A stretch of DNA of 35,510 nt from a virus: the IMG/VR virus record IMGVR_UViG_3300028883_000025, positions 1 to 35,510 of that record. One strand, 5' to 3'. The stretch's first letter is position 1; the number at the start of each line of letters is the position of its first letter. This document shows positions 7,930 through 35,510 of the stretch, piece by piece. The notes below the pieces were generated by a model. That model made no database searches. It saw nothing but the letters and a program-made list of their open reading frames with translations, and was not told where the DNA came from. A program made the position numbers and the translations under genes.

Positions 7930-7951
7930 AAGTTATGCACACCTTAGACTA

Positions 7952-8005
7952 TGTACAAATGTTTTTAATTAGTTTATAATGATTATAGTTTAATTAAAGT
8001 ATAAT
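7952..8005 (+). promoter_or_regulatory. Promoter region for the 8.0-kb small RNA
   Basis: TGTACA (7952-7957), 17 bases, TATAAT (7975-7980) is a reasonable sigma70-type promoter with start near 7987. A second TATAAT (8000-8005) without a good -35 would start transcription near 8012, exactly at the first paired base of the RNA below. One or both may be used. Confidence 0.5.
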
Positions 8006-8007
8006 AT

Positions 8008-8097
8008 ATGAACACTGGAAGGATAACTTATAATAGTTTATTGGCAGGCGACTTGTTTGCCGATTTGACCAGTTTCACCTTCCAGTGTACTGGTTGA
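8008..8097 (+). CDS. Possible 29-codon leader peptide inside the small RNA
   Basis: An ATG at 8008 opens a 29-residue frame (MNTGRITYNSLLAGDL..., stop TGA 8095-8097) that runs through the structured RNA. There is no ribosome-binding site, and the perfect pairing of the RNA already explains the sequence, so coding may be accidental. If translated, the ribosome would melt the left arms of both main helices, which is how leader-peptide attenuators work. Confidence 0.2.
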   Translation: MNTGRITYNSLLAGDLFADLTSFTFQCTG

Positions 8098-8125
8098 AGC
8101 CAATAAATTATTATAAGTTTTTTTT
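8012..8125 (+). ncRNA. Structured small RNA with interleaved helices and terminator
   Basis: Helix B pairs 8025-8045 with 8099-8119: 21 consecutive pairs with one G-T wobble, followed at once by eight T (8118-8125), a very strong intrinsic terminator. Inside B lies hairpin C (8064-8073 with 8089-8098, ten pairs, two wobbles), stacked end to end on B, and a minor GGCG/TGCC hairpin. The 15-base loop of C contains CCTTCCAGTGT (8078-8088), perfectly complementary over 11 bases to the 5' end of the transcript (8012-8022). Order is A1-B1-A2-B2, so A and B either form a pseudoknot or exclude each other. No known family is recognised. Confidence 0.75.
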
Positions 8126-8423
8126 ATTATAATTTTGCCAAATTTTTATTTTTCTTTATGGCTTTTAAAATATTAAAAGTCTTGTAAGCAAAATAAAGTC
8201 AGCCACAAACACCTAAGAGGGAAGACTATAAATTAGCCTCAAGGTCAACACATACGGATACCTTCCGTCTCAAGCAGACAAAAACGTTCTTACTATTTTT
8301 TTTAAAAAACCTTGTTTAACAAGGAATAACCCCTAGTCTACAAAGCCCACTAACATATAGTAAACTGCTTAGACAAAGGACAACGGCTGTGCGAGTGGGT
8401 ATAAGTATACTTAAGTAAACAAA
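8126..8423. other. Non-coding stretch with several small hairpins
   Basis: About 300 bases with no supportable reading frame. Hairpins seen: CTTTTAA/TTAAAAG (8162-8179), AGTCTT (8178-8183)/AAGACT (8222-8227), ACGGA/TCCGT near 8255, CCTTG/CAAGG (8310-8324), and CCCACT (8346-8351)/AGTGGG (8394-8399). GTCTA (8336-8340) can also pair with TAGAC (8370-8374), interleaving with the last stem. A T8 run sits near 8296-8303. It may hold a second structured RNA or the 5' leader of the repressor gene at 8424. Confidence 0.4.
8402..8413. promoter_or_regulatory. 12-bp perfect palindrome, likely operator
   Basis: TAAGTATACTTA is a perfect inverted repeat, 10 bases upstream of a gene for a ribbon-helix-helix-like protein at 8424. 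Ribbon-helix-helix dimers bind such short symmetric sites and often repress their own gene, so an autoregulatory operator is a reasonable inference. Confidence 0.45.
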
Positions 8424-8585
8424 ATGAAAGAAAAAAAAGAATATAAAAGTGATTTTAATAAATTAGTAAGAATAAGAAAGAGCCAGTTGGATTGGTTAAA
8501 GTTAAATAAAAAGACTAAAACTGTAGCTGGCTTTTTAGATATAATAATTAACCATTACAAGAATGACCAAAGCAGAGAAAAATAA
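8424..8585 (+). CDS. Ribbon-helix-helix (CopG/Arc-like) regulator
   Basis: 53 residues. A basic N-terminus leads to a short beta strand (KLVRIRKSQ), then two helices with a turn (LDWLKLNKKTKTVAGFLDII INHYK region, about residues 22-46), the layout of ribbon-helix-helix DNA-binding proteins. It would act as a dimer on a symmetric site, and a perfect 12-bp palindrome stands directly upstream. It overlaps the next gene by 23 bases. Probably an early regulator or repressor of its own operon. Confidence 0.55.
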   Translation: MKEKKEYKSDFNKLVRIRKSQLDWLKLNKKTKTVAGFLDIIINHYKNDQSREK

Positions 8586-8712
8586 AATAACAATGAAAAT
8601 CGGATTCTGGACTGGTAAGAAAAAAGTCAATCCTAAACTATCATCTATTTGTGATAGAGAAATTAAAAAACTAAAAGAAGAACTAAATGAAAGAACTATT
8701 TTACACAGTTAA
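8563..8712 (+). CDS. Small basic protein of unknown function
   Basis: 49 residues, highly Lys-rich (GFWTGKKKVNP, then REIKKLKEELNER). ATG 8563 overlaps the regulator gene; an internal ATG at 8593 is an equally possible start. It overlaps the following gene by 26 bases, so it is embedded in a compact early operon. No family recognised. Confidence 0.45.
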   Translation: MTKAEKNKITMKIGFWTGKKKVNPKLSSICDREIKKLKEELNERTILHS

Positions 8713-9058
8713 TTTAATCAACCACGAATATTGGGTAGCGGTTTATATAGGCAAAGACTATAAACAAGTAGAAAAAAGAATTTTAAAACACTTTGAAGGT
8801 AATAGACCAGATGATATGGAAATGGAAAAATTTAGGGGCAAATGTTGGATGAGAGAGGGTTATGCACCGTTTATTTTAGTAAATACAAAACACTGCAAAA
8901 CAATAATTAAGATTTGTGCTACTTTAGCTCATGAGTCTTTCCACGCTCTACAGGATATTTTTGAAATGATAGGCGAACCTTTTAAAGGAGAAATCCCAGC
9001 TCACTCAATTTCAATTATTTTAAAAGAGTTTGAATATTATCGTAATAAAAAAATATGA
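8687..9058 (+). CDS. HExxH-motif protein, putative zinc metallopeptidase
   Basis: 123 residues. ATLAHESFHALQDIF (about 78-92) carries the zincin motif H82-E83-S-F-H86, and GEIPAHSISI downstream offers Glu102 as a third ligand, the arrangement of gluzincin-type sites. The first 75 residues are a beta-alpha domain beginning LFYTVNLINHEYWVAV. Small proteins with an (A/V)HExxHA(L/W)Q segment followed by a conserved Glu-x-x-Ala are known in many phage early regions with unknown role. Its stop overlaps the next start by ATGA. Peptidase activity is inferred from the motif only. Confidence 0.6.
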   Translation: MKELFYTVNLINHEYWVAVYIGKDYKQVEKRILKHFEGNRPDDMEMEKFRGKCWMREGYAPFILVNTKHCKTIIKICATLAHESFHALQDIFEMIGEPFKGEIPAHSISIILKEFEYYRNKKI

Positions 9059-9183
9059 CCTACAAAACAATACAAGAAGCTAGAAAGCATCTTAAAAAAA
9101 ATCAAATAATAATTAAAACACCTAAAGGGTATATGATTATTAAAGAATTAAAGGCTATACCTGAAAAGTTGTGGGCGAAGTAG
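9055..9183 (+). CDS. Small basic protein of unknown function
   Basis: 42 residues, start coupled to the HExxH gene (ATGA). Basic helix (EARKHLKKNQIIIK) then a beta-like stretch with PKGYMIIKEL. No family recognised. It is the last gene before a non-coding gap containing a consensus DnaA box. Confidence 0.5.
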   Translation: MTYKTIQEARKHLKKNQIIIKTPKGYMIIKELKAIPEKLWAK

Positions 9184-9184
9184 T

Positions 9185-9193
9185 TTATCCACA
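9185..9193 (+). promoter_or_regulatory. Consensus DnaA box
   Basis: TTATCCACA is an exact match to the bacterial DnaA-box consensus, at the start of the AT-rich gap 9184-9341. Only one perfect copy is seen, so this is weak evidence for an origin. The same gap holds a TATAAT (9293-9298) without a good -35, which may help express the genes from 9342. Confidence 0.3.
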
Positions 9194-9341
9194 GCAGACC
9201 ACGTATTTCAATAAAAAAACAAATAAAAAAAATGAATTGGGAAATGTGTATAAAATAAGTGCTAAGATTAAAAGATAAATAGATGTGGACTTTATAATGG
9301 GTCTATGATAGAGTTATAACATAACGAACTAAACAAAAAAT

Positions 9342-9518
9342 ATGAGCAAATATCAACTAAACTTTACAGGAGATAAGGAGGAACTGCACCAAATGCTTAA
9401 AAAATGGTGTGAACAAGAGAATAAAATAATGAATGGCACTATTATAAGTTTAATAGAAAAACACTTAAAAGATAATAAGTTCGCCACAACATTAAAAGAG
9501 TGGAAAACAAATCAATAG
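9342..9518 (+). CDS. Small ribbon-helix-helix-like protein
   Basis: 58 residues: a strand (KYQLNFTGD), a helix (EELHQMLKKWCEQENK), a turn and a second helix (TIISLIEKHLK). This is compatible with a ribbon-helix-helix fold, as for the protein at 8424, but the sequence match is loose. It begins an early operon that runs to the ERF gene. Its stop is one base before the next start. Confidence 0.45.
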   Translation: MSKYQLNFTGDKEELHQMLKKWCEQENKIMNGTIISLIEKHLKDNKFATTLKEWKTNQ

Positions 9519-11419: not shown

Positions 11420-11920
11420 ATGAAAACAAAACTAACAAAATTTGCAATCATCGCTATGACAGCTTTAGTGGTGATTCTCGGAGCAAACACGCTAACCGAA
11501 ACCCTAATTAACAAATCATCAGACTTCGGAAAGTATTTGGGTAGACAAGGGAATTTGTATGCGATTTTAAATGGCAACCTAGCTATGCCAAGTTATAATC
11601 TGAATGTTATTAGGGCCGATGCCAAAGAGCCAGAGCCAACAATGCAAGAGTGGGTAAAAATGGAAATAGAAAAGGCAGGGCTTAGTTGGGAAGAAGCTGA
11701 ATGTATTATAATCAACGAAAGTCATTGGGAAAACACCTGTAATGCCAATACAAATCTTTCAACAGACTGCGGAATTTGGAGAATAAACAGCGTGCATAAA
11801 GATACAATTTCTTTTGCCGACAGGCTTGATTATAAAAAAGCTACCGAGTGGGCAATTAATAAAAGACTAACAGTAGGACACTGGAACGATTGGGTAGCGT
11901 ATAAAAATAATTGTAAATAA
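11420..11920 (+). CDS. Secreted lytic transglycosylase/lysozyme-like endolysin
   Basis: 166 residues. The N-terminus is a Sec signal or signal-anchor (TKFAIIAMTALVVILGAN). The catalytic region spans about 75-162: the probable acid Glu100 in IIINESHW, TDCGIWRINSVH resembling the G-(L/I)-(M/W)-Q core of SLT lysozyme-like domains, and a last helix with WAINKRLTVGHWNDWVAY. It would cleave peptidoglycan glycan strands outside the membrane. A signal-anchor endolysin could act without a classical holin. It stands alone after a structured RNA. Confidence 0.7.
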   Translation: MKTKLTKFAIIAMTALVVILGANTLTETLINKSSDFGKYLGRQGNLYAILNGNLAMPSYNLNVIRADAKEPEPTMQEWVKMEIEKAGLSWEEAECIIINESHWENTCNANTNLSTDCGIWRINSVHKDTISFADRLDYKKATEWAINKRLTVGHWNDWVAYKNNCK

Positions 11921-11952: not shown

Positions 11953-12735
11953 ATGAGTAAAGAAAAAAACAACACAGGCTACTGGAACACAGGCAACAGG
12001 AACACAGGCAACTGGAACACAGGCGACAGGAACACAGGCTACTGGAACACAGGCAACAGGAACACAGGCTACTGGAACACAGGCAACAGGAACACAGGCC
12101 ACTCGAACACAGGCTACTGGAACACAGGCAACAGGAACACAGGCCACTCGAACACAGGCCACTGGAACACAGGCCACTGGAACACAGGCCACAGGAACAC
12201 AGGCAACTGGAACACAGGCGACAGGAACACAGGCTACTGGAACACAGGCAACTGGAACACAGGCCACAGGAACACAGGCCACAGGAATACAGGCTACTTG
12301 AACACAGGCAACTGGAACACAGGCAACCGGAACACAGGCTACTTGAACACTATAAACCAGAAAGTTGTGATATTTAACAAGCAAACCGAATTAAAACATG
12401 AAGAAATACAATTTCCTAATTTCTTTTATTATATTTTAACAGAATGGATTGAAGAAGAAGAAATGACAGATAAAGAAAAAGAATCTTACCCGACTTATGT
12501 TACCACTGGAGGATATTTAAAATCTTATACAGATAAACAAGCGTGGAGAAATTCCTGGGATAAAGCAGATATGGAAGATAGAAAAAAAGTCTTAGCGTTG
12601 CCTAATTGGGATAACGAGATTTTTAAGGAAATATCTGGCATAGATGTAGAAAAAGAGCTAAATAACAACGTAGAAGAAATGACAATGGGAGAGGTTTGCA
12701 AAGCGTTAGGTAAAACAATTAAGATTAAGAAATAA
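11953..12735 (+). CDS. NTGxx pentapeptide-repeat protein with conserved C-terminal domain
   Basis: 260 residues. Residues 7-131 are 25 uninterrupted five-residue repeats NTGxx (variable pairs YW, NR, NW, DR, HS, HW, HR, YL), of the Pentapeptide_2 type (N-x-G-x-x), expected to form a regular beta-solenoid. The C-terminal 120 residues (FFYYILTEWIEEEEMT, YVTTGGYLKSYTDK, LPNWDNEIFKEISGID) match a domain that follows such repeats in many phage and bacterial proteins of unknown role. No signal peptide. DNA mimicry against gyrase is known for another pentapeptide class (MfpA/Qnr) but is not supported here. It is flanked on both sides by the linker repeat, suggesting an exchangeable cassette. Confidence 0.75.
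   Translation: MSKEKNNTGYWNTGNRNTGNWNTGDRNTGYWNTGNRNTGYWNTGNRNTGHSNTGYWNTGNRNTGHSNTGHWNTGHWNTGHRNTGNWNTGDRNTGYWNTGNWNTGHRNTGHRNTGYLNTGNWNTGNRNTGYLNTINQKVVIFNKQTELKHEEIQFPNFFYYILTEWIEEEEMTDKEKESYPTYVTTGGYLKSYTDKQAWRNSWDKADMEDRKKVLALPNWDNEIFKEISGIDVEKELNNNVEEMTMGEVCKALGKTIKIKK
11971..12345 (+). repeat. 15-bp tandem repeat, 25 units
   Basis: 25 in-frame units of the pattern AACACAGGC plus six variable bases, encoding the NTGxx repeats. Near-identity at the DNA level implies recent expansion or conversion, so copy number probably varies between relatives. Not a CRISPR array: units are contiguous and have no spacers. Confidence 0.9.
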
Positions 12736-17023: not shown

Positions 17024-17305
17024 ATGCCGTTCGAAAAAGGAAACAAGTTATATAAAAAAAGAAAAAAATCAGGTAGGGAAGGATTTGGTATTGAAAACGC
17101 TAAAAAACACTTACTTGAACAAGCCTATTGGATAGTAAACAAACAACTAGAAAAACAAAAAAAAGAATTAACTGAAAAAGAAAAGATTGAATTAGCTAAG
17201 CAAGTTGTTTTAAAGGAATTAGGAAGTAAAATAGATTTAGGCTTTGGCGATAAAAAACTTAAAAAAGTTTTAGTAGAGTTTAAAGATGGAGACGATAAAA
17301 ATTGA
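17024..17305 (+). CDS. Candidate small terminase subunit
   Basis: 93 residues, very Lys/Glu-rich. The opening MPFEKGNKLYKKRKKSGREG is typical of short phage small-terminase proteins (PFxxGNKLxxKR). It is followed by helices and no obvious zinc site. Position supports the call: directly before the large terminase and overlapping its start by 20 bases. It is shorter than most small terminases and no HTH is obvious, so the assignment is by N-terminal motif and context. Confidence 0.55.
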   Translation: MPFEKGNKLYKKRKKSGREGFGIENAKKHLLEQAYWIVNKQLEKQKKELTEKEKIELAKQVVLKELGSKIDLGFGDKKLKKVLVEFKDGDDKN

Positions 17306-18563
17306 AATCCCAGCAGAATATAAAGAGCTTTTTACTGACTGGTGGAGAGAAGCAGCAATATACGGTGGCAGATATTCATTAAAATCACATACAGTGGCTA
17401 GATATTTACTTATTAGAGCCAGACAACAAAAGACCAGAGTTCTATGTTGTAGAGAGTTCCAAACATCAATAAAAGAAAGCTCACATCAATTATTAGCCGA
17501 TTTAATAGAATATTACGGGCTTAATGATTTTACTGTAACCGATAATTCCATTATAAACAAAGAAACAGGCTCAGACTTTCTATTTAAAGGACTATGGAAC
17601 AACGAACAAGGAATTAAATCAACCGAAGGTGTTGATATAGCCTGGGTAGAAGAAGCTCAAACCGTAAGCAACAATAGTTTGGAGGTATTAACCCCAACCG
17701 TAAGAAAAGATAATTCTAAGATAATTTACACCTATAACAGACTTTTAGAAGAAGACCCAGTACATAAGAGATTGGTAATTGAAGGCAGACCGAATACTTT
17801 AATAATCAACCATAACTACGATATAGCCGAAAAATACGGATGGATGCCTGATGTTATTAAACAGGAGATGGAAGACGATAAAGAGAAGCGACCAGCTTTA
17901 TATGAACATAAATGGCTTGGTAAACCTGAAAGCAAAGGCAGAAGAATATATACAGGCTGGGAATGCTACGAAACAGTACCTAAAACAGCCAGACTTGAAC
18001 GATATGGATTAAACTTTGGATATTCAGCTCACCCATTAGGATTAATAGCTCTTTATTATTACAACGGAGGGTATATAGTAGACCAGATAATGTACGGGCT
18101 AGGATATAGCAATAGAAACGTAGCTGATATGCTTAAAAACCTTGAAAAAGCCCTTGTAATAGCCGACAGTGAAGATTCTAAGAGTATTGAGGAAATAAGA
18201 GGCTACAGAATAAACATAATCGGCAGTGAAAAGAAAGTAAAAAGGTCTTTAAACTTAAAAGCAGGAACTAAAAAGAAATATAAAAAATGGAGCATTCAGA
18301 TAGTACAGAATGAGAAAATTGGCTATACTAAAAGAAGCGTAGACGTTGAAAGAGAATATCAGAACTTCTTATGGATGACAGACCCAAGAACAGGTCAAAT
18401 ATTAGACGAACCAGAAGAACCTTTTCACTATTCTATGGATGCTATAAAATACGCTGTATGTTCATTAGCACCAGTTATTAATAAACAAGAGTATATTAAT
18501 CAAAACTTCTTGAATAATATGCCAAGTCAAACAAATGCCAGACCAGCCAACCCAGCCAGGTAA
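17286..18563 (+). CDS. terL: Terminase large subunit
   Basis: 425 residues. ATPase: Walker A-like GGRYSLKS (27-34) and Walker B region DIAWVEEA (117-124) with the catalytic Glu; IIYTYNR at 146-152 is the coupling motif. Nuclease: LNFGYSAHP (242-250), VIADSEDSKSIEE (291-303) and YSMDAIKYAV (382-391) are the three RuvC-like acidic motifs. It powers DNA packaging and cuts the genome. Oddly the first acidic position, Asp in typical DFG-type sequences, is Asn243 here, while Asp294 and Asp385 are kept. Length is normal for headful-type terminases. Confidence 0.92.
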   Translation: METIKIEIPAEYKELFTDWWREAAIYGGRYSLKSHTVARYLLIRARQQKTRVLCCREFQTSIKESSHQLLADLIEYYGLNDFTVTDNSIINKETGSDFLFKGLWNNEQGIKSTEGVDIAWVEEAQTVSNNSLEVLTPTVRKDNSKIIYTYNRLLEEDPVHKRLVIEGRPNTLIINHNYDIAEKYGWMPDVIKQEMEDDKEKRPALYEHKWLGKPESKGRRIYTGWECYETVPKTARLERYGLNFGYSAHPLGLIALYYYNGGYIVDQIMYGLGYSNRNVADMLKNLEKALVIADSEDSKSIEEIRGYRINIIGSEKKVKRSLNLKAGTKKKYKKWSIQIVQNEKIGYTKRSVDVEREYQNFLWMTDPRTGQILDEPEEPFHYSMDAIKYAVCSLAPVINKQEYINQNFLNNMPSQTNARPANPAR

Positions 18564-18801
18564 ATATAAAATAGAATTAAAAATTGGAGACTTTGAAACT
18601 AAAGCAGAAGCCGATAATGTTTTTGACGCTTTATCCAAACTAAAGAAACCAGAACAAATTAAAGAACTGGCTTATTTTAAGATTATATTTAATAACAGTA
18701 AGCTAGAAAGAAGACTGACCGTACCGAAACTAACCTCATTATTCGGCAGACCAGTTTATAGAAAGATAATGGCTAAACAGCTAGAGTCTTATTTAAGATA
18801 G
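18535..18801 (+). CDS. Small protein between terminase and portal
   Basis: 88 residues, overlapping the terminase end by 29 bases. YKIELKIGDFETKAEADNVF then ALSKLKKPEQ give a beta-alpha fold, followed by a basic C-terminus (RPVYRKIMAKQLESYLR). No family recognised. Last gene before the attenuator-like RNA. Confidence 0.55.
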   Translation: MPDQPTQPGKYKIELKIGDFETKAEADNVFDALSKLKKPEQIKELAYFKIIFNNSKLERRLTVPKLTSLFGRPVYRKIMAKQLESYLR

Positions 18802-18811
18802 AATATAAAAT

Positions 18812-18911
18812 CCCGTTCAATACTTGGTAGTGTCTTTAAAGGCTACTAATCTTTGAACGGGTATTAGCTATCCTTAAAAGGCACTACTTAGATAATTAAG
18901 TAGTGTTTTTT
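18812..18911 (+). promoter_or_regulatory. Attenuator-like RNA with alternative terminator and antiterminator
   Basis: Terminator: CACTACTTA (18882-18890) pairs with TAAGTAGTG (18897-18905), nine perfect pairs, then six T (18906-18911), ending 2 bases before the portal ATG. Upstream hairpin P1: CCCGTTCAA (18812-18820) with TTGAACGGG (18853-18861), containing P2 (18824-18830 with 18843-18849). Antiterminator: GTAGTGTCTTT (18827-18837, in P2) pairs with AAAGGCACTAC (18877-18887), 11 pairs with one wobble, which removes six bases from the terminator's left arm. So P2 plus terminator and the antiterminator exclude each other. The trigger is unknown. Confidence 0.75.
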
Positions 18912-18913
18912 AT

Positions 18914-20713
18914 ATGAATATTTATGAATATATTACAACCGAGGAAAATGCGTATAGGTCAACTCCTGTAGATTTACAGGGCTGGGAGTGGAGTATGCCT
19001 GAACACATTAAAAAAGGCTTTTATTATAAGCACGGCAGGCTTTTAACTGGTAACCAAGACAGCAAGCCAGTCAAGAACATAATCAGACCATTGCTTAACT
19101 TACAATACAGGACAGAAGATATTGATGTTAAGGACATATTACTTTATGTGGAAAATGAAGAAAAGTTCCATTTGTCATTCTTGGTTAAAAAGTACCACGA
19201 TGACGTATTTGTACAAAAGTATAACCTAGATGAAGTCTGGGATGACTGCAATGTGTCAAGAATAGATTTGGGGGGAGGTCTTTTAAAAAATGTTGACCAA
19301 CCAGTTCCTGAGGTAGTTCCTTTAAACACAATAGCTTTTTGCGACCAGACTGATATGCTGGCAGGCCCGATATGCTTTAAACATTTTTATAATCAAGAAC
19401 AATTACTGGTAATGGCAGACAAAGGCTGGGGAGACACTAAAAACGGTGCAACAATGAGCCTGGAGGACTTTGCAATGCTATCTGAGGCAAACAAAGACAA
19501 CCGAGACGATACTAAAGACAATAAAACCCCTGGCAAATATTTAGAAGTTTATGAATTACACGGAATATTGCCTAAAAACTGGCTAAACGACAATGCAAAG
19601 CCAGAAGAGTATGAAAAGCAAATGCACATTGTCGCCTATTATTGGGATGAAGACGGAAACAAAAACGGTGTTACTCTATTTAAGGGCAAACTAAAAAAGG
19701 ATGAAGAACTTTTAAAACTTACTATAAGAGATAAAGTAGAGGGCAGAGCTTTAGGCTTTGGCGGTGTTGAAGAAATAGAAGAAGACCAAGTATGGACTAA
19801 CTATAACCAGATAAGGTTTAAAGAGCTTTTAGACGGTGCTTCTAAGGTAATCCATTTAACAGATGATAAGGGATTTTACGCCAGAAACCCGAATATGGAC
19901 AATGTGGACAATAACAGTGTTCTGGTGGTTGAAGAAGGGGCAAATGTCAGACAAATGGACACTGTTCCGAGAACGACTAACCTGTATGAAAGGTGGGATG
20001 CAGAGCTATCAGCTCACGCCCAAGTTATGGCTTCAGCATCAGACCCAGTTCTAGGCAAGGAAGCTCCGTCAGGAACACCTTTTGCTTTACAACAATTAGT
20101 AACCCAAGAAGGAAAAGGACTGCACGAATTTAGACGAGGACAATACGCTAAATTTATTGAATCGGTATATAGAGACTGGATTATCCCTTACATTAAAAAG
20201 GAAATAACTAGAGGCAAAAAGTTCTTATCTAGCCTATCAATGGATGAAATGGAAATGGTGGGGGAGCAAATAGCAATGAATGAATCTTTAAGAAGATTAA
20301 AAGAAAAGGTTTTAAATGGTGAAACCATAGCACCAGGAGAAAAAGAAGAAATATATACTAAAGTATTGGATGAGTTTAACAAAGACAATAATAAATTCAT
20401 TGAACTATTAGAGGGCGAGCTAACCGATGACGAAATTACCGTAAAAATAAATATTGCCGGCAAACAAAAGAATATGCCAGCCTTTGTTGATAAGTTAGTG
20501 AATTTATTTAGACAAGTTGCGTCAGCCCCACAATTACTTGATGACCCTAGAATGGCTAAGTTATTTAATCAAATATTAGAAAGCTCAGGTTTATCTCCTA
20601 TTGAGTTCGGTGCTTTAAGGTTACAGTCAGCACCCGTTCAGCAACCACAAACAAATGTTGCGACAGAACCCTTAGGGCAGTTAGCCGAAGCTCAACAAAC
20701 AAATGCTAAATAA
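18914..20713 (+). CDS. Portal protein
   Basis: 599 residues. Position after terminase and before scaffold/capsid, length, and the long helical C-terminal part (KKEITRGKKFLSSLSMDEME onward, then a Gln-rich tail) fit a phage portal, the dodecameric ring through which DNA is packaged. The N-terminal half has the mixed alpha/beta wing-like region (KYHDDVFVQKYNLDEVWDDC, WEWSMPEH) seen in portals of short-tailed metagenomic phages, and an APSGTPFALQQL segment near residue 385 typical of these portals. Its ATG follows the terminator T-run by only 2 bases, leaving no room for a ribosome-binding site. Confidence 0.8.
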   Translation: MNIYEYITTEENAYRSTPVDLQGWEWSMPEHIKKGFYYKHGRLLTGNQDSKPVKNIIRPLLNLQYRTEDIDVKDILLYVENEEKFHLSFLVKKYHDDVFVQKYNLDEVWDDCNVSRIDLGGGLLKNVDQPVPEVVPLNTIAFCDQTDMLAGPICFKHFYNQEQLLVMADKGWGDTKNGATMSLEDFAMLSEANKDNRDDTKDNKTPGKYLEVYELHGILPKNWLNDNAKPEEYEKQMHIVAYYWDEDGNKNGVTLFKGKLKKDEELLKLTIRDKVEGRALGFGGVEEIEEDQVWTNYNQIRFKELLDGASKVIHLTDDKGFYARNPNMDNVDNNSVLVVEEGANVRQMDTVPRTTNLYERWDAELSAHAQVMASASDPVLGKEAPSGTPFALQQLVTQEGKGLHEFRRGQYAKFIESVYRDWIIPYIKKEITRGKKFLSSLSMDEMEMVGEQIAMNESLRRLKEKVLNGETIAPGEKEEIYTKVLDEFNKDNNKFIELLEGELTDDEITVKINIAGKQKNMPAFVDKLVNLFRQVASAPQLLDDPRMAKLFNQILESSGLSPIEFGALRLQSAPVQQPQTNVATEPLGQLAEAQQTNAK

Positions 20714-21044
20714 ATTTTTAAGTGAAAAAGAAGACATTGAAGTTAGAAGAGCCGTGCAAAACAAAAACTTAATGCAAGGCTTAAAAAAAGTATTCTTCAG
20801 CCAAGTATATAATCAAGGAGAAGTTAGAGACGATGTTGATATGGGAGACCCATCTGGAAACTTTGCCCTTAACAAGGCATTTCTAGCCATTCAACAAGAC
20901 CCACACATCACTAATCAAGAGCTAGGAGAGAATCTAAGAGCCGATGCTCAAGCATTAAGACAAATGGAATTGGCTTTTAAATCATTAGAAACATTTAAAC
21001 CACAAGACAAACCAGTTGATGAAAAATCAAACCCAGCTAGATAA
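20703..21044 (+). CDS. Small virion-cluster protein of unknown function
   Basis: 113 residues, overlapping the portal end by 11 bases. Mostly helical, with a Gln/Ala-rich centre (RADAQALRQMELAFKSLETF). It ends in SNPAR, like the terminase (ANPAR). Candidates include a head-completion or internal head protein; no family recognised. Confidence 0.55.
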   Translation: MLNKFLSEKEDIEVRRAVQNKNLMQGLKKVFFSQVYNQGEVRDDVDMGDPSGNFALNKAFLAIQQDPHITNQELGENLRADAQALRQMELAFKSLETFKPQDKPVDEKSNPAR

Positions 21045-21061
21045 CAAATTAACATAACATT

Positions 21062-21832
21062 ATGAAAACATTTATGAAGTTTATTGCATATACACTAATA
21101 GCAGTAGTCTTGTTATTAGGCTATGTAATATATCAGCTAAATTTCTCAGAAACTAACGGAAATTTAGGATTTGATGCTTATCCTCAACCAACTGGAGTAG
21201 TATTGCCAAATCCAACAGACGGAGCTGCAACATCGTCAACTTCTGGTACACTGGCAAACGACACTTATTATTTTAAAATTACAAGTGTTGATTATGCTGG
21301 CGGACAAACAAACCCGTCTTCAGAGTTTACTTGTGTTGTAGCAGGGTCTAATAACTCTTGTACGGTTACATTAACACCGACAACGGGAGCTGCTTCAACC
21401 AGATTGTGGGTTTCTACTGTTTCAGGAACTTATACAGGCTATTTAACAGCCACAAGTTCTGTTAATGTAGCAACTACCTCAAGTTTAACCACGGCAACTA
21501 TGTCGCAAGTTAATACAGCCTATTACTTTAATAGCCTTTTAGAGGTAGATAATACTTGGCTTAAATCTTATGCCACAGCAGATACAGCTGTCAAAGTCGG
21601 GGCTGGGATAGTTCATTCGGTAACATTTAGTCCGTCAGATGCAGCCGCAACCGCAGGGACTATTGCGATTCTTGATTCGACATCATCAGGAAATGGAACA
21701 ACTACAATTTATTACTTAACAGCCGCTTATCACGAGCCACAAACAGTAATACTAGACCAGGTGTTTACGAATGGAATTTACGTTGATTTTACCACAACAA
21801 ATGATGTCAATGTTTCAGTTAGTTATAAATAA
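21062..21832 (+). CDS. Membrane-anchored surface protein with beta domains
   Basis: 256 residues. One N-terminal membrane helix (about 6-24), then the motif FSETNGNLGF. About residues 45-150 form a fibronectin/Ig-like beta domain (TYYFKITSVDYAGGQTNPSS, a common surface and head-fibre fold), and residues 165-256 a second beta domain (TADTAVKVGAGIVHSVTF ... NGIYVDF) like phage head-decoration or fibre modules. It is placed between portal and scaffold, where decoration proteins often sit. A membrane anchor on such a protein is unexpected. Confidence 0.65.
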   Translation: MKTFMKFIAYTLIAVVLLLGYVIYQLNFSETNGNLGFDAYPQPTGVVLPNPTDGAATSSTSGTLANDTYYFKITSVDYAGGQTNPSSEFTCVVAGSNNSCTVTLTPTTGAASTRLWVSTVSGTYTGYLTATSSVNVATTSSLTTATMSQVNTAYYFNSLLEVDNTWLKSYATADTAVKVGAGIVHSVTFSPSDAAATAGTIAILDSTSSGNGTTTIYYLTAAYHEPQTVILDQVFTNGIYVDFTTTNDVNVSVSYK

Positions 21833-21843
21833 TATAAAAAACT

Positions 21844-21978
21844 ATGTTAATAGACAAAAAAATGAACTCGCTTAAAGACAAACTTTATAGCGAGTTAGAG
21901 GCTGAAAAGCCTAAAAAAGTGGTCGGAGAGACCAAAACAAAGGTCGAAAAATCTAATAAACCTAATAAGAAAAAATAA
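21844..21978 (+). CDS. Small Lys-rich protein
   Basis: 44 residues; about one third Lys, ending in KSNKPNKKK. Probably disordered. It is set between two signal-bearing surface proteins with 11 and 1 base gaps. Could bind DNA or acidic scaffold; unknown. Confidence 0.45.
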   Translation: MLIDKKMNSLKDKLYSELEAEKPKKVVGETKTKVEKSNKPNKKK

Positions 21979-21979
21979 T

Positions 21980-22534
21980 ATGAATAAACTTAAAGTATTT
22001 TTAACAGTAGCTTTGACGCTTGTTCTCTCCGTATCTGCCGTTTACGCATTAACTGTAAATATGAGTGTTGACGAGCTTAAACAGCTTACAAGCAATGACA
22101 CCTTTGGTGCTATGGCAAGTCCTGACCACTATCAGAGACAATATTTTCACGCTGGTTATCAAAGCGGCGGAAGTGTATATTCAACATCTTCAACCGCTGC
22201 AACCTTTACATTGTTATCTGCTAATTTTGACGGAGATGTAACATATGTTGATTGGACACCGAATGTAAGCACTACCATTACAACAATGGCTTCTACTTCA
22301 ATGTATTGGCTGGGCGAAACACCTGGAGACGAAAGGTCTTACTGGTTTAGAAATGCAAGTTCAACAGCTACTGCTTCAATTACATTTGCTGCAGGAACTG
22401 GCGTTGATTTGCAAGACAATGAAGATAGTGCTGACTTAGCATTACTTGGTCTCGATTTGATGAAATTAACATTTATAAGAAAAGCTGACAGTGATGTTCT
22501 TCTAGTATTAGACGAATATACAGAAGCTGATTAA
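21980..22534 (+). CDS. Secreted virion-cluster protein
   Basis: 184 residues. Classic Sec signal (NKLKVFLTVALTLVLSVSA, cleavage likely near VYA-LT), then the motif LTSNDTFGA, then a Thr/Ser-rich beta domain (YSTSSTAATFTLLSANFDGD ... LMKLTFIRKADSDVLLVLDE). The closing hairpin resembles small phage decoration proteins. It lies directly before scaffold and capsid genes, which suggests a head-associated protein, yet it has an export signal. Confidence 0.65.
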   Translation: MNKLKVFLTVALTLVLSVSAVYALTVNMSVDELKQLTSNDTFGAMASPDHYQRQYFHAGYQSGGSVYSTSSTAATFTLLSANFDGDVTYVDWTPNVSTTITTMASTSMYWLGETPGDERSYWFRNASSTATASITFAAGTGVDLQDNEDSADLALLGLDLMKLTFIRKADSDVLLVLDEYTEAD

Positions 22535-22600
22535 TTTATATAAGTTCTCACTCTTTAAAAGTGATTTAAGTTATTATTCTTTATAAAAATAATTAAGGTT

Positions 22601-23245
22601 ATGATTCCTAGCAAAAATCATTACCATTTATCATTTATGGACATTCAAAATGAAGACACCCAAGAAGTAGAAGAAACTTCTGAAGAAGAACAAGAAGAAC
22701 AAGAGGGAAACGAAGAAGAACAAGAAGAAGATGAAGAACAAGAAGAAGAAGCTATTGATTGGGAGGCTAAAGCAAGAGAGCTTGAGGGTCGTAATAAACG
22801 ACTACAAACCAAGCTAGAGAAGCAAAACTCAAAAAAAACAAAAGCTAAAAAAACTAATGATGGCGAGATAGATTACGGACAATTAGCATTTTATAACTCT
22901 GATGCTGAAGTACCTGTAAAAAGCGAAGCTGACATTGAATACCTGCAAGATATGATGGATGAAACTGGTATGACACAAAAAGAACTTCTTGGTAAAAAAT
23001 GGTTCATTAATGAACTCAAAGAAAAGCAAGAAGCTCAAGCTGTTAAACAAGCAGTTCCTACATCAAATAAACGTAGAGGTCAATCAGAAGTCAATGAAGT
23101 TGATTACTGGCTTGCAAAACCAGAAGGACAAGATTTGCCTCCAGTAGAGCAAGTTGAACTTAGACGTAAGGTATTGAATGAAAAAATAAAAAGAGCTAAA
23201 AACAAATCTAAATTTGCTAGTCAGGGTATAGTACAGGGTGCGTAG
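22601..23245 (+). CDS. Scaffolding protein
   Basis: 214 residues (an internal ATG at 22637 is an alternative start). Residues 15-55 are almost solid Glu/Gln/Asp (EEEQEEQEGNEEEQEE), followed by a coiled coil (ARELEGRNKRLQTKLEKQNS) and a basic C-terminus with SKFASQG. Acidic, coiled-coil proteins directly before the major capsid gene are typical capsid scaffolds, which guide shell assembly and are then lost. No protease active site is visible, so scaffold removal must be by exit or another enzyme. Confidence 0.75.
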   Translation: MIPSKNHYHLSFMDIQNEDTQEVEETSEEEQEEQEGNEEEQEEDEEQEEEAIDWEAKARELEGRNKRLQTKLEKQNSKKTKAKKTNDGEIDYGQLAFYNSDAEVPVKSEADIEYLQDMMDETGMTQKELLGKKWFINELKEKQEAQAVKQAVPTSNKRRGQSEVNEVDYWLAKPEGQDLPPVEQVELRRKVLNEKIKRAKNKSKFASQGIVQGA

Positions 23246-23274
23246 TTGTCATTAATCGTTTTGCCCTTTAAAAG

Positions 23275-24129
23275 ATGAGTAATACATTTAATTCTGGCGT
23301 GTACCCAGAAGAATGGATGACTAAACTTCAGGAAAGGTTGGATGCACCAACTAACTGGAAAGAAGTTTGCGAGGTTATCTATTCAAATACGAAGATTTTT
23401 AATCTTCCTTATATGAGTACCGAACCAGTAATCCAAACTGGTACTCGTGGAACTGCATACGGATTCTCCGATTTTGCACTTACCAATGACACCATTGACA
23501 TCTCAACCTATAAGCCAGTACCTGTCTTTATTGACAGAGCTGACCTTGCACAATGTTCTTTGGTAAACCAAATGGAACTTGCCGAAAGACAAGGTGCAAT
23601 TATTGATGAGTGGATTGAAACAGCTATCTTGGCTAACCACGCCAATTGGACAAACTTTACTAATGCTTCAATTGGTGGAGCTGCTGGAAACATCACTGTT
23701 TCTGCAACCAATATTGATGACATTATTAGAGGAATTAAGAGAGAAATTGGCGAAGCTAATGGGCAAGATTTGGCTGACAGAAAAGGAGTCTTCATTGTTT
23801 GGAGATATGCAGACCTTGAAATCTTGGAACAGTTTGCACAGGCTAATGGATTTAACCTAGCTGACAAGGCTTTGAAGAACGGTATTAAAACAGGTTATCA
23901 CTTTATGGGTGTTGACCACTATGTTTCTAACAACCACACTTCAGGACACCTTTTCGCAGGTGTTAAGGGAATACAGCAAATCGGTATTTTGAAAGAAACT
24001 TACGGACAAATCGTTATAACTCAAGACCCAAACCTACAATCTGGTATTGGCGTTATTAGTAGGGTTGACTACGGTTTGAATGTAAGAGCTGCACATTCTG
24101 GACTTGTATTTGACGTTACCGTAGCTTAG
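23275..24129 (+). CDS. Major capsid protein
   Basis: 284 residues. Position after the scaffold, size, and regions such as YKPVPVFIDRADLAQC, a long spine helix (MELAERQGAIIDEWIETAIL), VFIVWRYADLEIL and the closing GLVFDVTVA fit the HK97-fold coat proteins of metagenomic tailed phages. It would form the icosahedral shell around the portal. Codons are visibly less AT-biased than in neighbours (more C- and G-ending codons such as AAC, GAC and TTG), as expected for the most highly expressed gene. A hairpin stands between it and the next gene. Confidence 0.8.
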   Translation: MSNTFNSGVYPEEWMTKLQERLDAPTNWKEVCEVIYSNTKIFNLPYMSTEPVIQTGTRGTAYGFSDFALTNDTIDISTYKPVPVFIDRADLAQCSLVNQMELAERQGAIIDEWIETAILANHANWTNFTNASIGGAAGNITVSATNIDDIIRGIKREIGEANGQDLADRKGVFIVWRYADLEILEQFAQANGFNLADKALKNGIKTGYHFMGVDHYVSNNHTSGHLFAGVKGIQQIGILKETYGQIVITQDPNLQSGIGVISRVDYGLNVRAAHSGLVFDVTVA

Positions 24130-24163: not shown

Positions 24164-24811
24164 ATGTATATTAAATTAGGAATAATAATACCTACGTATA
24201 ATTCGTTAAATACATTAAAAGTACTTGTAAAAAATATACTAGACTACACACAGGAAGATTTTATTATTTACGTTGTAGAAGACGGGCAAAGAAAAGAAAC
24301 TATTGGTTGGCTTAAAACACAGAACATTAAAAAAATATTACACAAAAAAAACAAAGGAGTAGCAATATCCTGGAATGACGGTATTAAAAGGGCAAAGAAA
24401 GACGGATGTACACATTTTGCGATATTTAATGACGATATAGAATTACCAGAAGGCTGGTGGGAGGAATGCAGGGATTTATTTTATAAAAACGCTAATCTGG
24501 TTACATTACCGCATTCAGTAGCGAATATAGTTATATCTGGTTGGTTCTTTATTATAGACAGAAAATGTATTGAAAGGGTCGGATATTTTGATGAACAGTT
24601 TTCTCCCTGTTTTTTTGAAGATTTGGATTATAAATACAGATGTAGCATTAACGGAATAAGGACAGGAATAGTTAATATAGACGTATATCATCACGGAGGC
24701 ACAACAACTTATGGAGAGTTAAAAGAATCAAGCAATAAATCTTTTAATAATAATTATCATAAATTTATTAAAAAGCATCCAAAGGTTAGGATGCAAGCAC
24801 AAAAAATATGA
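24164..24811 (+). CDS. Family 2 (GT-A) glycosyltransferase
   Basis: 215 residues. Rossmann-like start LGIIIPTYNSLNTLKVLV, VVEDGQ, NKGVAISWNDGIKRAK, and FNDDIELPEGW (about 87-97) in place of the metal-binding DxD. GYFDEQFSPCFFEDLDYKYR is the ED-containing acceptor region, and YHHGGTTT closes the active site. It would transfer a sugar from a nucleotide donor; glycosylation of a virion or cell-surface protein is likely, since it lies between capsid and connector genes. Overlaps the next gene by ATGA. Confidence 0.82.
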   Translation: MYIKLGIIIPTYNSLNTLKVLVKNILDYTQEDFIIYVVEDGQRKETIGWLKTQNIKKILHKKNKGVAISWNDGIKRAKKDGCTHFAIFNDDIELPEGWWEECRDLFYKNANLVTLPHSVANIVISGWFFIIDRKCIERVGYFDEQFSPCFFEDLDYKYRCSINGIRTGIVNIDVYHHGGTTTYGELKESSNKSFNNNYHKFIKKHPKVRMQAQKI

Positions 24812-25395
24812 AAATTTGCATAGGTTTATTAAGCAATAGGGGGTTTGAACAACAAATGGTATTATCCCTATTAAAAATGATAGATTTTACTGATGATGTT
24901 GAGTTCCATTTTGAAGTAGCGACCGAGGGATATACAATAGCAGAAAATCGCAACTTTTTAGCCGCTAAGTCTTGTCAGAATAATTGCACTCACTTAATGA
25001 TGATTGATGACGATATGATTATCCCAGAATTTACTTTGAAATTAATGTTATCACACGACAAGGATATGATAGGCGTTAATTATAACCCCAGAATGTTAAG
25101 CGATGGATATATGGTTTGGAAAAAGGGAGACAAAGAAGGACAGAGAACTAAAAAAGAAGATTTGCCTAACGAATTGTATGAATGTGAAGCTATAGGATTT
25201 GGTGCTGTACTTATAAAAACTAAATTATTCCACGAAATAGAAAGACCCTGGTTTGATTGGGAAATGTACGATACTGGAATGATAAAAACTGGAGAAGATT
25301 ATTATTTTTGTAAAAAAGCCACAAAGAAAGGGTTTAAAATATGGTGCGACCCACATATAAAGCCAGTACAGCATATTGGAAAGTGGCTATATTAG
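24808..25395 (+). CDS. Second GT-A type glycosyltransferase
   Basis: 195 residues. YTIAENRNFLAAKS (about 47-60), MMIDDDMIIPEFTL with a DDD metal-binding motif, CEAIGFGAVLIK, and GEDYYFCKKATKKGFKIWCDP, the catalytic ED region, match phage-encoded GT-A enzymes distinct from the preceding GT2. No membrane segment. Coupled to the GT2 gene by ATGA, so the two probably build one short glycan. Confidence 0.78.
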   Translation: MKICIGLLSNRGFEQQMVLSLLKMIDFTDDVEFHFEVATEGYTIAENRNFLAAKSCQNNCTHLMMIDDDMIIPEFTLKLMLSHDKDMIGVNYNPRMLSDGYMVWKKGDKEGQRTKKEDLPNELYECEAIGFGAVLIKTKLFHEIERPWFDWEMYDTGMIKTGEDYYFCKKATKKGFKIWCDPHIKPVQHIGKWLY

Positions 25396-26330: not shown

Positions 26331-26525
26331 ATGCCATTAGTAACCACAAATGAAAGTAAAAATGATTTAAGTCTTACAAATGAAGATAAAGACAGTTCTT
26401 TGACTTGGGATGGTTCTGACCCACTTACTTGGGATGATGAAGATTCACAATGGAATGCCCCAGGCGTTCCTTTTAACAAAGAATCTAAAAATGATTTATC
26501 TTTAACTAACGAATCAAAAGTATGA
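26331..26525 (+). CDS. Small acidic virion-cluster protein
   Basis: 64 residues with an internal repeat: SKNDLSLTNE near residue 8 and again near 52, around a Trp/Asp-rich centre (SLTWDGSDPLTWDDEDSQW). Short proteins with WDD repeats of this kind are common between connector and tail genes. Role unknown. Confidence 0.5.
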   Translation: MPLVTTNESKNDLSLTNEDKDSSLTWDGSDPLTWDDEDSQWNAPGVPFNKESKNDLSLTNESKV

Positions 26526-27544
26526 GTTATTACAAAATATTTATAATATCACTTTTCACAACATTAGCCACTTTGGGCTTTATTTATAATTATATTACTT
26601 TTGACCCTATTTATTTGCTTACAGAAAACGACAATCTGGGGGCTGATATAACAACAATAAACGGAAGCGATAAAATAAAAGACTCAAGAGCTGTTATAAA
26701 TACTAATTTTACTAACTTAAATAACGATAAAATAGAAACATCTACCACTAGCTTACCTTTGATAGTAACATTAAGTGGGCTAACAACAGCCTCTAGTCTT
26801 GATACAGTCGGAACAATAACTACTGGTACTTGGAATGCAGACGCTTTGACAGTAACCTATGGAGGTACTGGAACAACCACCTTAACGGCAAATTCTGTTT
26901 TATTGGGTAATGGCACAAATTCTATTGTGAGTTTAGGAGCTGGTTCTGAAAACCAGGTTTTAACAATGAAAAGTGGTGTGCCAACCTGGACTTCTACAGC
27001 TATAGACGAAACTGCTGATTATATTTGGACTGGTCATCATACTTTTAATGCCACAAGCACATTTAGCGCTTCTACCACTTGGAACATATTACCAGAATAT
27101 ACATCAGACCCTAAAAATGATAATGAGGCTGTCAGAAAAAGTTATGTTGACAATTATTTAGGAGAATATTTCGCAGACACCTGGACTATTGACCCAGGAG
27201 GAAGCACTGCGACAACATCTATAACCTATAATTTTGATGATGTTCCTAAGTTTGTTAGAGCTACTTTAGTAACAAGCGGTAGCGAAGAAACAAACGGAGT
27301 GGAAATTAGGTCTTTTGGAACTTATGACGGAACAAATTATGAAACAATATGGCAAGGCGATGGCAATGTTCTTGATTATGGGGTAAGTACAAATTATTTA
27401 GCTTATTATTTATTTTCTGGAGCAAATGACTATTATGTCAGGATGTCTGTTACATCAATGGATGCTACAAGCCTAGAGCTTTCAATTTCTGGAGAAAATT
27501 CTTCAGACCCTACAAATATTATATTAATTGAAGTAATAAGATAA
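26522..27544 (+). CDS. Membrane-anchored tail-fibre-like protein
   Basis: 340 residues. N-terminal membrane helix (about 4-26), then LLTENDNLGA, then fibre-type repeats: TVTYGGTGTTTLTANSVLLG and NGTNSIVSLGAGSENQVLTM are classic for phage tail fibres (YGGTG...ANSVLLGNGT). The C-terminal 130 residues form a beta-sandwich-like head (ATTSITYNFDDVPKFVRATL ... NIILIEVIR), probably receptor binding. It ends one base into the next ATG. An anchor helix ahead of a fibre is unusual. Confidence 0.72.
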   Translation: MSYYKIFIISLFTTLATLGFIYNYITFDPIYLLTENDNLGADITTINGSDKIKDSRAVINTNFTNLNNDKIETSTTSLPLIVTLSGLTTASSLDTVGTITTGTWNADALTVTYGGTGTTTLTANSVLLGNGTNSIVSLGAGSENQVLTMKSGVPTWTSTAIDETADYIWTGHHTFNATSTFSASTTWNILPEYTSDPKNDNEAVRKSYVDNYLGEYFADTWTIDPGGSTATTSITYNFDDVPKFVRATLVTSGSEETNGVEIRSFGTYDGTNYETIWQGDGNVLDYGVSTNYLAYYLFSGANDYYVRMSVTSMDATSLELSISGENSSDPTNIILIEVIR

Positions 27545-33294: not shown

Positions 33295-34074
33295 ATGACA
33301 CAAGAAGAAAAACTACAAAAACTTTTATCATTAATGGATTCTGACGGCTTAACAGAAGCTAAGTTTAAAAGTGCGTTTAATAAAGTTCTTGAATTCGTAA
33401 AAAAGAATAGAGAAGAAATAACAAATGCACTAAATAAACTTAATGAATTTAATCTAAGATTAGCAAAAAAGATTGAAAATGAACAACTTACTACCAGCAA
33501 CAAAATAGATAATAAAACAGACAAAGAGTTTATTAGACTACAGGGAGAATTTAATAAACTTAAAACAACTATTGATAACAGAATGGCAGAAGTTAAAGAC
33601 GGAAAAGACTCTGATGAAGACAGCATTGTTGAAAAAGTAATGGAAATGATAGAAGTTCCTGAACTAGAAGATATTGTTAATAGTATTCCGATGGAAGCTG
33701 AAAAGATAAGAGACAGCCTAGAACTATTGCAAGGAGACGAAAGATTAGATGAATCAGCCATTAAGGGGTTAAAAGAAAGATTTAAAAAATTAGAAGAAAT
33801 GATAAATGAAAAACCTTTGGGTGGCGGTGGAGGAGGGTTTTCTAATATTGCTATGCAACGTCATTTCGTAGATGATGAAACACCAAGCGGGACTTTAAAT
33901 GGAGTTAATACAGAGTTTAAGCTAGCTAAAACACCTTTTACAGGCTCACTTAAATTATATAGAAACGGACAACGGTTAAGAATTACAGAGGATTACACTT
34001 TATCAGGAAAAACAATAACATTATTAGTAGCACCTGCAAGTGATGAAATACTTTTGGCAGATTACAGATTCTAA
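33295..34074 (+). CDS. Coiled-coil tail-fibre protein with C-terminal beta domain
   Basis: 259 residues. Residues 1-170 form long coiled coils (KVLEFVKKNREEITNALNKL, EFNKLKTTIDNRMAEVKD), suggesting a trimeric stalk. After a GGGGGG hinge (about 176-182), the last 70 residues are a beta domain (DDETPSGTLNGVNTEFKLAK, SLKLYRNGQRL, EDYTLSGKTITLLVAPASDE, LLADYRF), a module found at the ends of many phage fibres. No signal peptide, in contrast to the other fibre-like genes. Last gene before the next promoter. Confidence 0.75.
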   Translation: MTQEEKLQKLLSLMDSDGLTEAKFKSAFNKVLEFVKKNREEITNALNKLNEFNLRLAKKIENEQLTTSNKIDNKTDKEFIRLQGEFNKLKTTIDNRMAEVKDGKDSDEDSIVEKVMEMIEVPELEDIVNSIPMEAEKIRDSLELLQGDERLDESAIKGLKERFKKLEEMINEKPLGGGGGGFSNIAMQRHFVDDETPSGTLNGVNTEFKLAKTPFTGSLKLYRNGQRLRITEDYTLSGKTITLLVAPASDEILLADYRF

Positions 34075-34111: not shown

Positions 34112-35510
34112 ATGAAAAATAAGGCTTCAATTTTAGGAATAATTACAATAGCAATATTGGCTTTAGTGTTTAATTATTCAAGGGCAATGACACTCACTAC
34201 AGATGAATATAAGGAATTAACAGAAGAACAAACACTTGGGGCTTCTGTGCTTCGTGTTGTTCAAGGTGGTACAGGAGCATCATCTTTTACATCAGGTGAA
34301 TGCTTAATTGGTAATGGTACTGGTGCTATTACAACACAAGCTTGTGGTGCAGGGGGCGGTGGGACAACTATTAATTATTTAAGTGATGTTAGCGATGTTT
34401 CTACTTCTACATTAGCTGACGGGTATATTTTAAAATGGAATGATTCAAGCCAAGAATGGCAGTCTACTTCTACTTTACAGACTTTTTTTTATGAGCAAGC
34501 GACTTCTACTAATAATCAAACAGTCTTTGATTTAAATACATTTACTTATGATACTGGCGACAACGAATTGGAGGTCTTTGTTAATGGTGTTTATCAAATT
34601 ATAGGGGATAGTTATGTAGAAACTGATTCTGACACTGTAACATTTAATACAGGGCTAAATACTGGCGATAGAGTGGTTTTTGCAGTAAGGGGCGGTATTG
34701 TTGACGCTGGGGGCGGTTCACAGCTCACAGAAGAACAGGTTGAGGATTATATTGGCGGTATGGTAACAGGAAATACAGAAACTGATATAACGGTTACTTA
34801 CCAAGATGATGATGGAACTTTAGATTTTGTTGTTACTGGCGGAACTGGAGGCTGGACTTTTTCAACTACAACTTTGGATTATTGGTTTGACAACACGAGT
34901 GGGATAACACGATTAACTCCTTATGTAACTCAAGCTTATGGTTCTTCTACTTATGCAATCGCTGGTGGAGCTTACCACGATGGATTTAGCGATTTTGTAG
35001 CTAACGAGCATATAGACTGGACTCAAGACCAAGGGGCGACTAATATACACGCAGGTAATTATACTGATACAACATTAGATTTAAGCAGTGCTGAAACTAT
35101 TACAGGAAACTGGGTAAACACAACTAACCCTTGGGCTGATAACGAGGTAAGTGATACTTTAACTGTTACAGGATATATGCAAGACACCGATATTGACACC
35201 TTCGCAGAGTTACAATCTTGGGCAGTTGGATATACTGATAACGATACCACTTATACAGCCGGAGATGCTTTAACTCTAGACGGCACTGAATTTGATTTTG
35301 ACGGAGGAGCCAGTCCCGGCGGAGAACTTGGAGGCACGTGGGCAAGTCCGACACTAGACCATGATGCTTTAGACGACCAATACTATGACTCAGAGGCGGA
35401 CTTAACTGGATTATTGGATGACAATTATGAGGGCGAGCTGGACAATGAAGCAGGGCTTTATTCGGCACTTTCCGATGTATCGCAGTTTTATGAGCCAAGC
35501 GATAATATGG
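34112..35510 (+). CDS. Fibre-like membrane-anchored protein, N-terminal part (continues at 1)
   Basis: 466 of 499 residues lie in this window segment. The last 127 bases here are the same as 1-127. N-terminal membrane helix or signal (SILGIITIAILALVFNYS), then LTEEQTLGA and a fibre-type VVQGGTGASSFTSGECLIGN. A central domain (NNQTVFDLNTFTYDTGDNEL ... VFVNGVYQI) is the beta module also found at the end of the 33295 protein. Later parts have DIDTFAELQSW-type fibre repeats. Expressed from the promoter directly upstream and followed by the lipoprotein gene at 230. Probably a fibre or adhesin; the export signal is the oddity. Confidence 0.78.
   Translation, partial: MKNKASILGIITIAILALVFNYSRAMTLTTDEYKELTEEQTLGASVLRVVQGGTGASSFTSGECLIGNGTGAITTQACGAGGGGTTINYLSDVSDVSTSTLADGYILKWNDSSQEWQSTSTLQTFFYEQATSTNNQTVFDLNTFTYDTGDNELEVFVNGVYQIIGDSYVETDSDTVTFNTGLNTGDRVVFAVRGGIVDAGGGSQLTEEQVEDYIGGMVTGNTETDITVTYQDDDGTLDFVVTGGTGGWTFSTTTLDYWFDNTSGITRLTPYVTQAYGSSTYAIAGGAYHDGFSDFVANEHIDWTQDQGATNIHAGNYTDTTLDLSSAETITGNWVNTTNPWADNEVSDTLTVTGYMQDTDIDTFAELQSWAVGYTDNDTTYTAGDALTLDGTEFDFDGGASPGGELGGTWASPTLDHDALDDQYYDSEADLTGLLDDNYEGELDNEAGLYSALSDVSQFYEPSDNM
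35384..35510. repeat. Terminal redundancy, right copy
   Basis: Second copy of the 127-base end overlap, identical to 1-127. Collapsing the two gives a circle of 35,383 bp. Confidence 0.95.

Follow-up and report, generated by a model that had tools for sequence, protein, structure and literature searches.

Seven proteins of an uncultured tailed phage begin with an export-type or membrane-anchoring leader followed by a short junction that pairs a hydrophobic residue (phi) with glycine, and in the tail-fibre family this glycine falls exactly where homologues that have no leader begin. Across related phages, the leader is present or absent on different appendages largely in concert. We consider it probable that these virion appendages are made as pre-proteins, exported, and then cut after phi-Gly, which would recreate the native N terminus.

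A complete phage genome with seven leader-bearing proteins

The window, the whole 35,510-base stretch that was analyzed, carries an exact 127-bp repeat at its two ends (positions 1 to 127 and 35384 to 35510) and is the complete, circularly permuted genome of an uncultured tailed phage. Since the end repeat closes the circle, gene 34112 passes position 35510 and resumes at 128 to 228, encoding 499 amino acids; the first 228 positions (+ strand) thus hold the terminal repeat and the 3′ end of this gene. An open reading frame called as a gene of its own at 31 to 228 was rejected, as it is the tail end of gene 34112. The head module (17286 to 24129, + strand) comprises genes for the terminase large subunit (17286 to 18563; phrog_3717, E = 1.4e-52), the portal protein (18914 to 20713; assigned by position and size), a probable head scaffold (22601 to 23245; phrog_1879, E = 0.056, with conserved position), and the major capsid protein (23275 to 24129; phrog_267, E = 4e-9). 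Neither the scaffold nor the capsid protein has a leader. The portal protein, which has 46% identity to its homologue in relative G001 and was found in 17 of 17 compared genomes, serves as the family marker. Neither the capsid nor the portal protein had a match among 50,697 phage records (cultured phages), and the nearest terminases, at 33 to 35% identity, were those of Nitratiruptor phages. A capsid search returned 27 viral loci and one contig from a genome bin; the latter, from a Methylococcaceae bin, belongs to a leaderless phage (L070).

Several other features of these genomes were observed. Two glycosyltransferase-like genes, recognized by eye at 24164 to 24811 and 24808 to 25395, lie between the capsid and tail genes and could add sugars to the S/T-rich appendages; relatives of the second occur in three of the compared genomes. 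The N terminus of the protein at 11953 to 12735 carries ~25 pentapeptide-like repeats (NTGxW/NTGxR) arranged head to tail. In G029 (the record of L109), the capsid gene lies in two pieces ~800 bases apart (7725 to 9388), possibly through an insertion inside the gene.

The seven genes, all on the + strand, are real, and each opens with a signal, membrane helix, or lipobox (signals being called by a hydropathy rule rather than by SignalP), as a sequence-only reading had claimed. Inspection for [LVI][ASTG][GA]C downstream of the hydrophobic core identified lipoboxes in proteins 230 (LSGC) and 3403 (LTGC) and in a protein of a related locus (L052 13388; LSGC). Protein 230 (230 to 1813; 527 amino acids) has the junction EF-G/AN, where the slash marks the putative cut (FGA at 287 to 295); the ORF finder had placed its start at GTG 200, and starting from ATG 230 yields the lipobox leader. 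A homologue search of the examined records returned none for this protein. Protein 3403 (3403 to 4695; 430 amino acids) has the junction PL-G/AK (LGA at 3475 to 3483).

By sequence, the leaders of 1828, 21980, and 34112 resemble cleavable Sec (type I) signals, and those of 21062 and 26522 resemble membrane helices that are not cleaved. AxA-like sites were seen by eye in 21980 (VYA/), 34112 (SRA/), and a fibre of relative G044 (VWA/), while the linkers of 26522 and 21062 have none. The predicted capsid spike (21980 to 22534) has the signal leader AVYA/LT, an acidic segment, and the junction TF-G/AM (FGA at 22103 to 22111). A fibre-like protein (34112 to 35510, continuing at 128 to 228) is similarly built, with the leader SRA/MT, an acidic segment, and the junction TL-G/AS (LGA at 34235 to 34243); its relative at L004 8516 to 11353 keeps both the leader and QELGA. 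The adjoining gene (33295 to 34074, + strand) encodes a coiled-coil fibre-like protein without a leader. Membrane-helix leaders precede the junctions NL-G/FD (LGF at 21164 to 21172) in protein 21062 (21062 to 21832), which ends in a beta domain, and NL-G/AD (LGA at 26636 to 26644) in the tail-fibre-like protein 26522 (26522 to 27544), which continues with the domain ITTI..SRAVINTNFTNLN. The weakest case among the seven is the S/T-rich, fibre-like protein with a Sec signal at 1828 to 2826 (332 amino acids). It has two candidate junctions, DF-G/SY (FGS at 1948 to 1956) and VL-G/QA (LGQ at 1966 to 1974); the former is closer to the consensus than the latter, which the sequence-only reading had named.

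The motif was said to lie just past the hydrophobic segment, 20 to 50 residues in, and it was confirmed at residues 20 to 49 in all seven proteins. Within the 50 residues past the hydrophobic segment, [LF]G[AFQ] is present in seven of the nine exported + strand proteins of the window; the same test on composition-preserving shuffles (20,000) gave a mean of 0.5 and a maximum of 4, and 10 of 158 other 50-residue stretches contain the motif. The two exported proteins that lack it are a lysozyme-like SLT protein (11420 to 11920, + strand; PF01464, E = 0.014), which has no junction and acts as an internal negative control, and the small protein 14414. This absence suggests a tie to structural proteins and not to export as such. 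The phi-G junction is also absent from the exported lysozymes of the relatives that were inspected. Three big exported fibre-like proteins on unrelated virus contigs (L001 7895 to 10441, L006 7667 to 10489, and L020 4890 to 7961) have a signal or helix and no phi-G-A.

Among capsid-sharing relatives, [LIVFM]GA occurs no more than 30 residues past the core in 28 of 58 exported proteins, compared with 18 of 359 stretches further along these proteins (Fisher P = 7e-16) and 9 of 384 unexported proteins (P = 1e-20). These counts are inflated by shared descent, homologues not being independent, and further tests were therefore made. Enrichment after the anchor relative to elsewhere, a check named beforehand, was found in both the window and these relatives.

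Junction and leaderless N termini in the appendage families

The N-terminal domain of fibre 26522 (ITTI..SRxVINTNFxNLN) was found at at least 80 viral loci. At many of these the fibre is leaderless and opens with M-[AS]-x-ITTI (MST-, MAD-, MAS-, or MAT-ITTI), whereas leader-bearing fibres have a leader of 20 to 64 residues followed by [LFYVA]-G-[ASTV]-x-ITTI. The junction glycine aligns with the initiator methionine of the leaderless fibres and the next residue with their residue 2. Leaderless homologues (L124 to L169) thus share the same domain and have A or S where the post-cut residue stands, and differ in having no leader and Met in place of the junction Gly. Glycine was invariant at 26 of 26 unique fibre junctions (3.8 bits). 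Position −2 was occupied by L (15), F (7), Y (2), V (1), or A (1) and position +1 by A (14), S (6), T (4), or V (2); E stood at −5 in 15 junctions, and the linker was otherwise variable in sequence and length. The motif first described as ending in (L/F)-G-(A/F/Q) therefore keeps its invariant glycine, while its flanks are better given as L/F/Y/V before and a small residue after.

The phi residue is encoded by TTA, CTT, TTT, CTC, TAC, or GTT and the glycine by all four of its codons. A start codon concealed at the junction was rejected given this variation, which indicates that selection acts on the amino acids. A different leader type appears to terminate at the same residue in the G044 fibre (L220 12405 to 13658), where a classical signal ends in SVWA/ right before STITTI. 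The structure model of 26522 (pLDDT 46) was left out of the analysis. A shared processing site past the anchor, as the sequence-only reading proposed, is the best explanation of a fibre site that coincides with the exact N terminus of leaderless homologues.

The family of protein 21980, unrelated in sequence to the 26522 fibre family, includes at least 26 loci, nearly all with a leader and a joint of the form G/[AGSV]-x-x-[GS]P[DE] behind a variable spacer. An AlphaFold model of 21980 (pLDDT 71) is folded at residues 61 to 183 and of low confidence at residues 38 to 63, around the joint. Its best solved match was the capsid spike of Pseudomonas phage Pa223 (9ny6_C; Foldseek E = 1.3e-5), with a VIA Z score of 11.3 and an rmsd of 2.5 over 98 residues. 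The next nine VIA chains (Z = 10.1 to 8.4; 90 to 102 residues aligned; later rows at 6.2 and 3.6) were phage tail, baseplate, gp9, or tailspike proteins, except 6o38, a chaperone-substrate complex (Z = 8.6). This fold match to a capsid spike and T4 gp9-gp10 points to a virion appendage, and the body of 21980 is predicted from the model to be a domain of the capsid-spike or T4 gp9-gp10 type. The likeness extends to nearness to the capsid gene, although identity to these proteins is 9 to 16%; to our knowledge, the Pa223 spike and T4 gp9/gp10 appendages are cytosolic and lack an export leader. When the spike profile was run against PDB sequences, it returned only S/T-rich noise, and hhalign detected no kinship between the spike body and three leaderless head proteins, two from G064 and one from G022. 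At L048, two adjoining 21980-like spikes (210 to 818 and 835 to 1422) keep the leader, joint, and first part and differ in the C-terminal domain, which by sequence looks like modular exchange behind the joint.

Profile matches to the C-terminal beta domain of 21062 were weak but consistent (E = 4e-5 to 6e-3) and included leaderless proteins encoded at the same gene position in the head region of related phages; this kind of head protein therefore exists in leader-bearing and leaderless forms. In several 21062-like proteins the site reads LGS or LGG or is missing. Among the leader-bearing proteins at large, those that lack a clean site include L045 (MLSA), L174 (LAAS), and L182 (LRGS), and SGA and TGA variants also occur.

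Leader state, topology, and protease across genomes

Leader state is nearly all-or-nothing per genome. In a comparison for which leaderless-fibre phages with related portals were collected, an exported phi-G appendage other than the fibre was found in 21 of 21 records with a leader-bearing fibre versus one of nine with a leaderless fibre (Fisher P = 1.5e-6, a tally that includes a few near-duplicate records). The exception, G039, has a leader on a head protein but none on its fibre. The portal tree shows at least five leader-state changes, on well-supported branches, and such block switching is as expected if the trait hangs on host or assembly mode. Shine-Dalgarno motifs were close to the shuffled-upstream background in most phages of the family, leader-bearing or leaderless, so their use does not separate the hosts of the two groups.

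Net charge drops from the N-terminal to the C-terminal side of the helix in 34 of 44 leaders and is reversed in one; this asymmetry, seen in both main families, favors an outward-facing body. Comparative genomics found no protease gene common to 15 leader-bearing genomes, and the host therefore probably supplies any cutting enzyme. A cut by signal peptidase I behind the alanine of phi-G-A is disfavored, as the glycine is invariant and V/T/F at +1 and F/Y at −2 are tolerated. A papain-like protein recognized by eye near a holin-like gene (6528 to 7574), with a counterpart at L083 4325 to 5695 and no Pfam match, may be a lysis or processing enzyme; it was rejected as the general enzyme, being present in only 4 of 15 compared genomes.

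A possible export-and-cut route and its alternatives

In the route we propose, the spikes and a beta-domain protein of the head, together with the tail fibres, would be synthesized behind an N-terminal leader, which is a Sec signal, a membrane helix, or a lipobox; an often acidic linker would follow, and then the site [ED]xx-phi-G/[ASTV]. The leader would carry the body over the host membrane, leaving the N terminus inside and the body outside, and a protease, probably the host's, would cut after the glycine. The resulting N terminus would equal that of leaderless cytosolic homologues, so the released protein could dock on the virion, either outside the cytoplasm or at lysis. A lipobox and a membrane helix lead to the same junction in the window, in agreement with the earlier suggestion of a site common to different anchors; the occurrence of the site after signal peptidase-type signals, helices, and lipoboxes alike would fit a role in releasing the protein from any kind of anchor. 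More tentatively, this tailed-phage lineage may finish its virions outside the cytoplasm, through Sec export, a host protease specific for phi-G/[AS], and docking in the envelope space or at lysis, with the trait turned on or off as a unit among sister phages. The accepted view is that tailed phages finish building their heads, spikes, and fibres within the cytoplasm, and we know of no precedent among them for assembly outside it. Among open-licence papers, we found no report of tailed-phage appendages with Sec leaders. If the proposal is true, reversible, concerted export and cutting of unrelated appendages would place part of assembly across the membrane, the appendages would be exposed to extracellular chemistry (disulfides and glycosylation), and a new host processing protease would be revealed. 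The junction would also serve as a sequence pattern by which such phages could be recognized and their hosts perhaps predicted.

The leader might instead be kept, so that anchored, fibre-derived proteins are displayed on the infected cell for adhesion or for exclusion of other phages and phi-G acts as a hinge. This would suit the leaders that are plain membrane helices, of which there are several, and the two that belong to lipoproteins, as such leaders would hold a protein outside. A hinge, however, would leave unexplained an invariant glycine, a hydrophobic −2, and a small +1 residue at the native N terminus in unrelated families, as well as what looks like an ordinary signal-peptidase site at that residue in the G044 fibre. 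Joint export of several different appendage families would be unusual for an exclusion role, and the bodies resemble virion parts, as seen in the fold of 21980 and in the end domain of 21062, which also occurs leaderless. We regard display as unlikely, and the earlier ideas of proteins held on the membrane and of fibre-derived adhesins are unsupported as stated. A cut without export is also conceivable, given that tailed phages commonly mature their virion proteins by proteolysis: the leader would be a hydrophobic arm that works inside the cell and is removed by a protease of the capsid-maturation type. Lipoboxes and AxA sites are export signals, though, and the charge asymmetry across the helix, the lack of a phage protease gene common to the 15 leader-bearing genomes, and the scaffold and capsid proteins without such a leader also make this very unlikely.

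A virion that is membrane wrapped or assembled at the membrane, with the anchored spikes and fibres as its outer proteins, would account for a single late cluster that encodes several anchored outer proteins, and filamentous phages set a precedent for exported coat proteins. We judge it highly improbable, considering the ordinary terminase, portal, scaffold, and capsid genes, the exported lysozymes that point to lysis, and the portals of leaderless sister phages, which are as similar as those of leader-bearing relatives. That the motif reflects chance, or mere descent within one family, and has no function is scarcely credible. Many of the counted proteins are indeed homologous, and short G-A motifs are frequent in S/T/G/A-rich proteins, as the later-stretch control illustrates. 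Against this stand the test confined to the window, the recurrence of the junction in families that are unrelated and after anchors of three kinds, a glycine that is invariant while the linker varies, and the repeated changes in leader state.

The proposed cleavage after phi-Gly can be compared with several known systems. Coat proteins of the Inoviridae are Sec exported, and leader peptidase removes their leader before they assemble at the membrane. The phages described here are analogous in having virion proteins with export leaders that would likewise be cut. They differ from the Inoviridae, which have a small helical coat and no terminase/portal/capsid module, in their terminase, portal, scaffold, and capsid genes, in a phi-G/[AS] site usually far from the membrane helix (median, 15 to 18 residues; range, 4 to 35), and in a leader that comes and goes among sister phages. 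The leaders themselves resemble type I signals (21980, 34112, and 1828) and those of bacterial lipoproteins (230 and 3403), whereas the conserved site lies further downstream and, with F/Y at −2 and V/T/F at +1, is unlike that of signal peptidase I. The acidic helix and GA of 21980 and 34112 are loosely like the double-glycine/C39 leader (LSxxELxxIxGG/), differing in a Gly at −1 preceded by a hydrophobic residue at −2.
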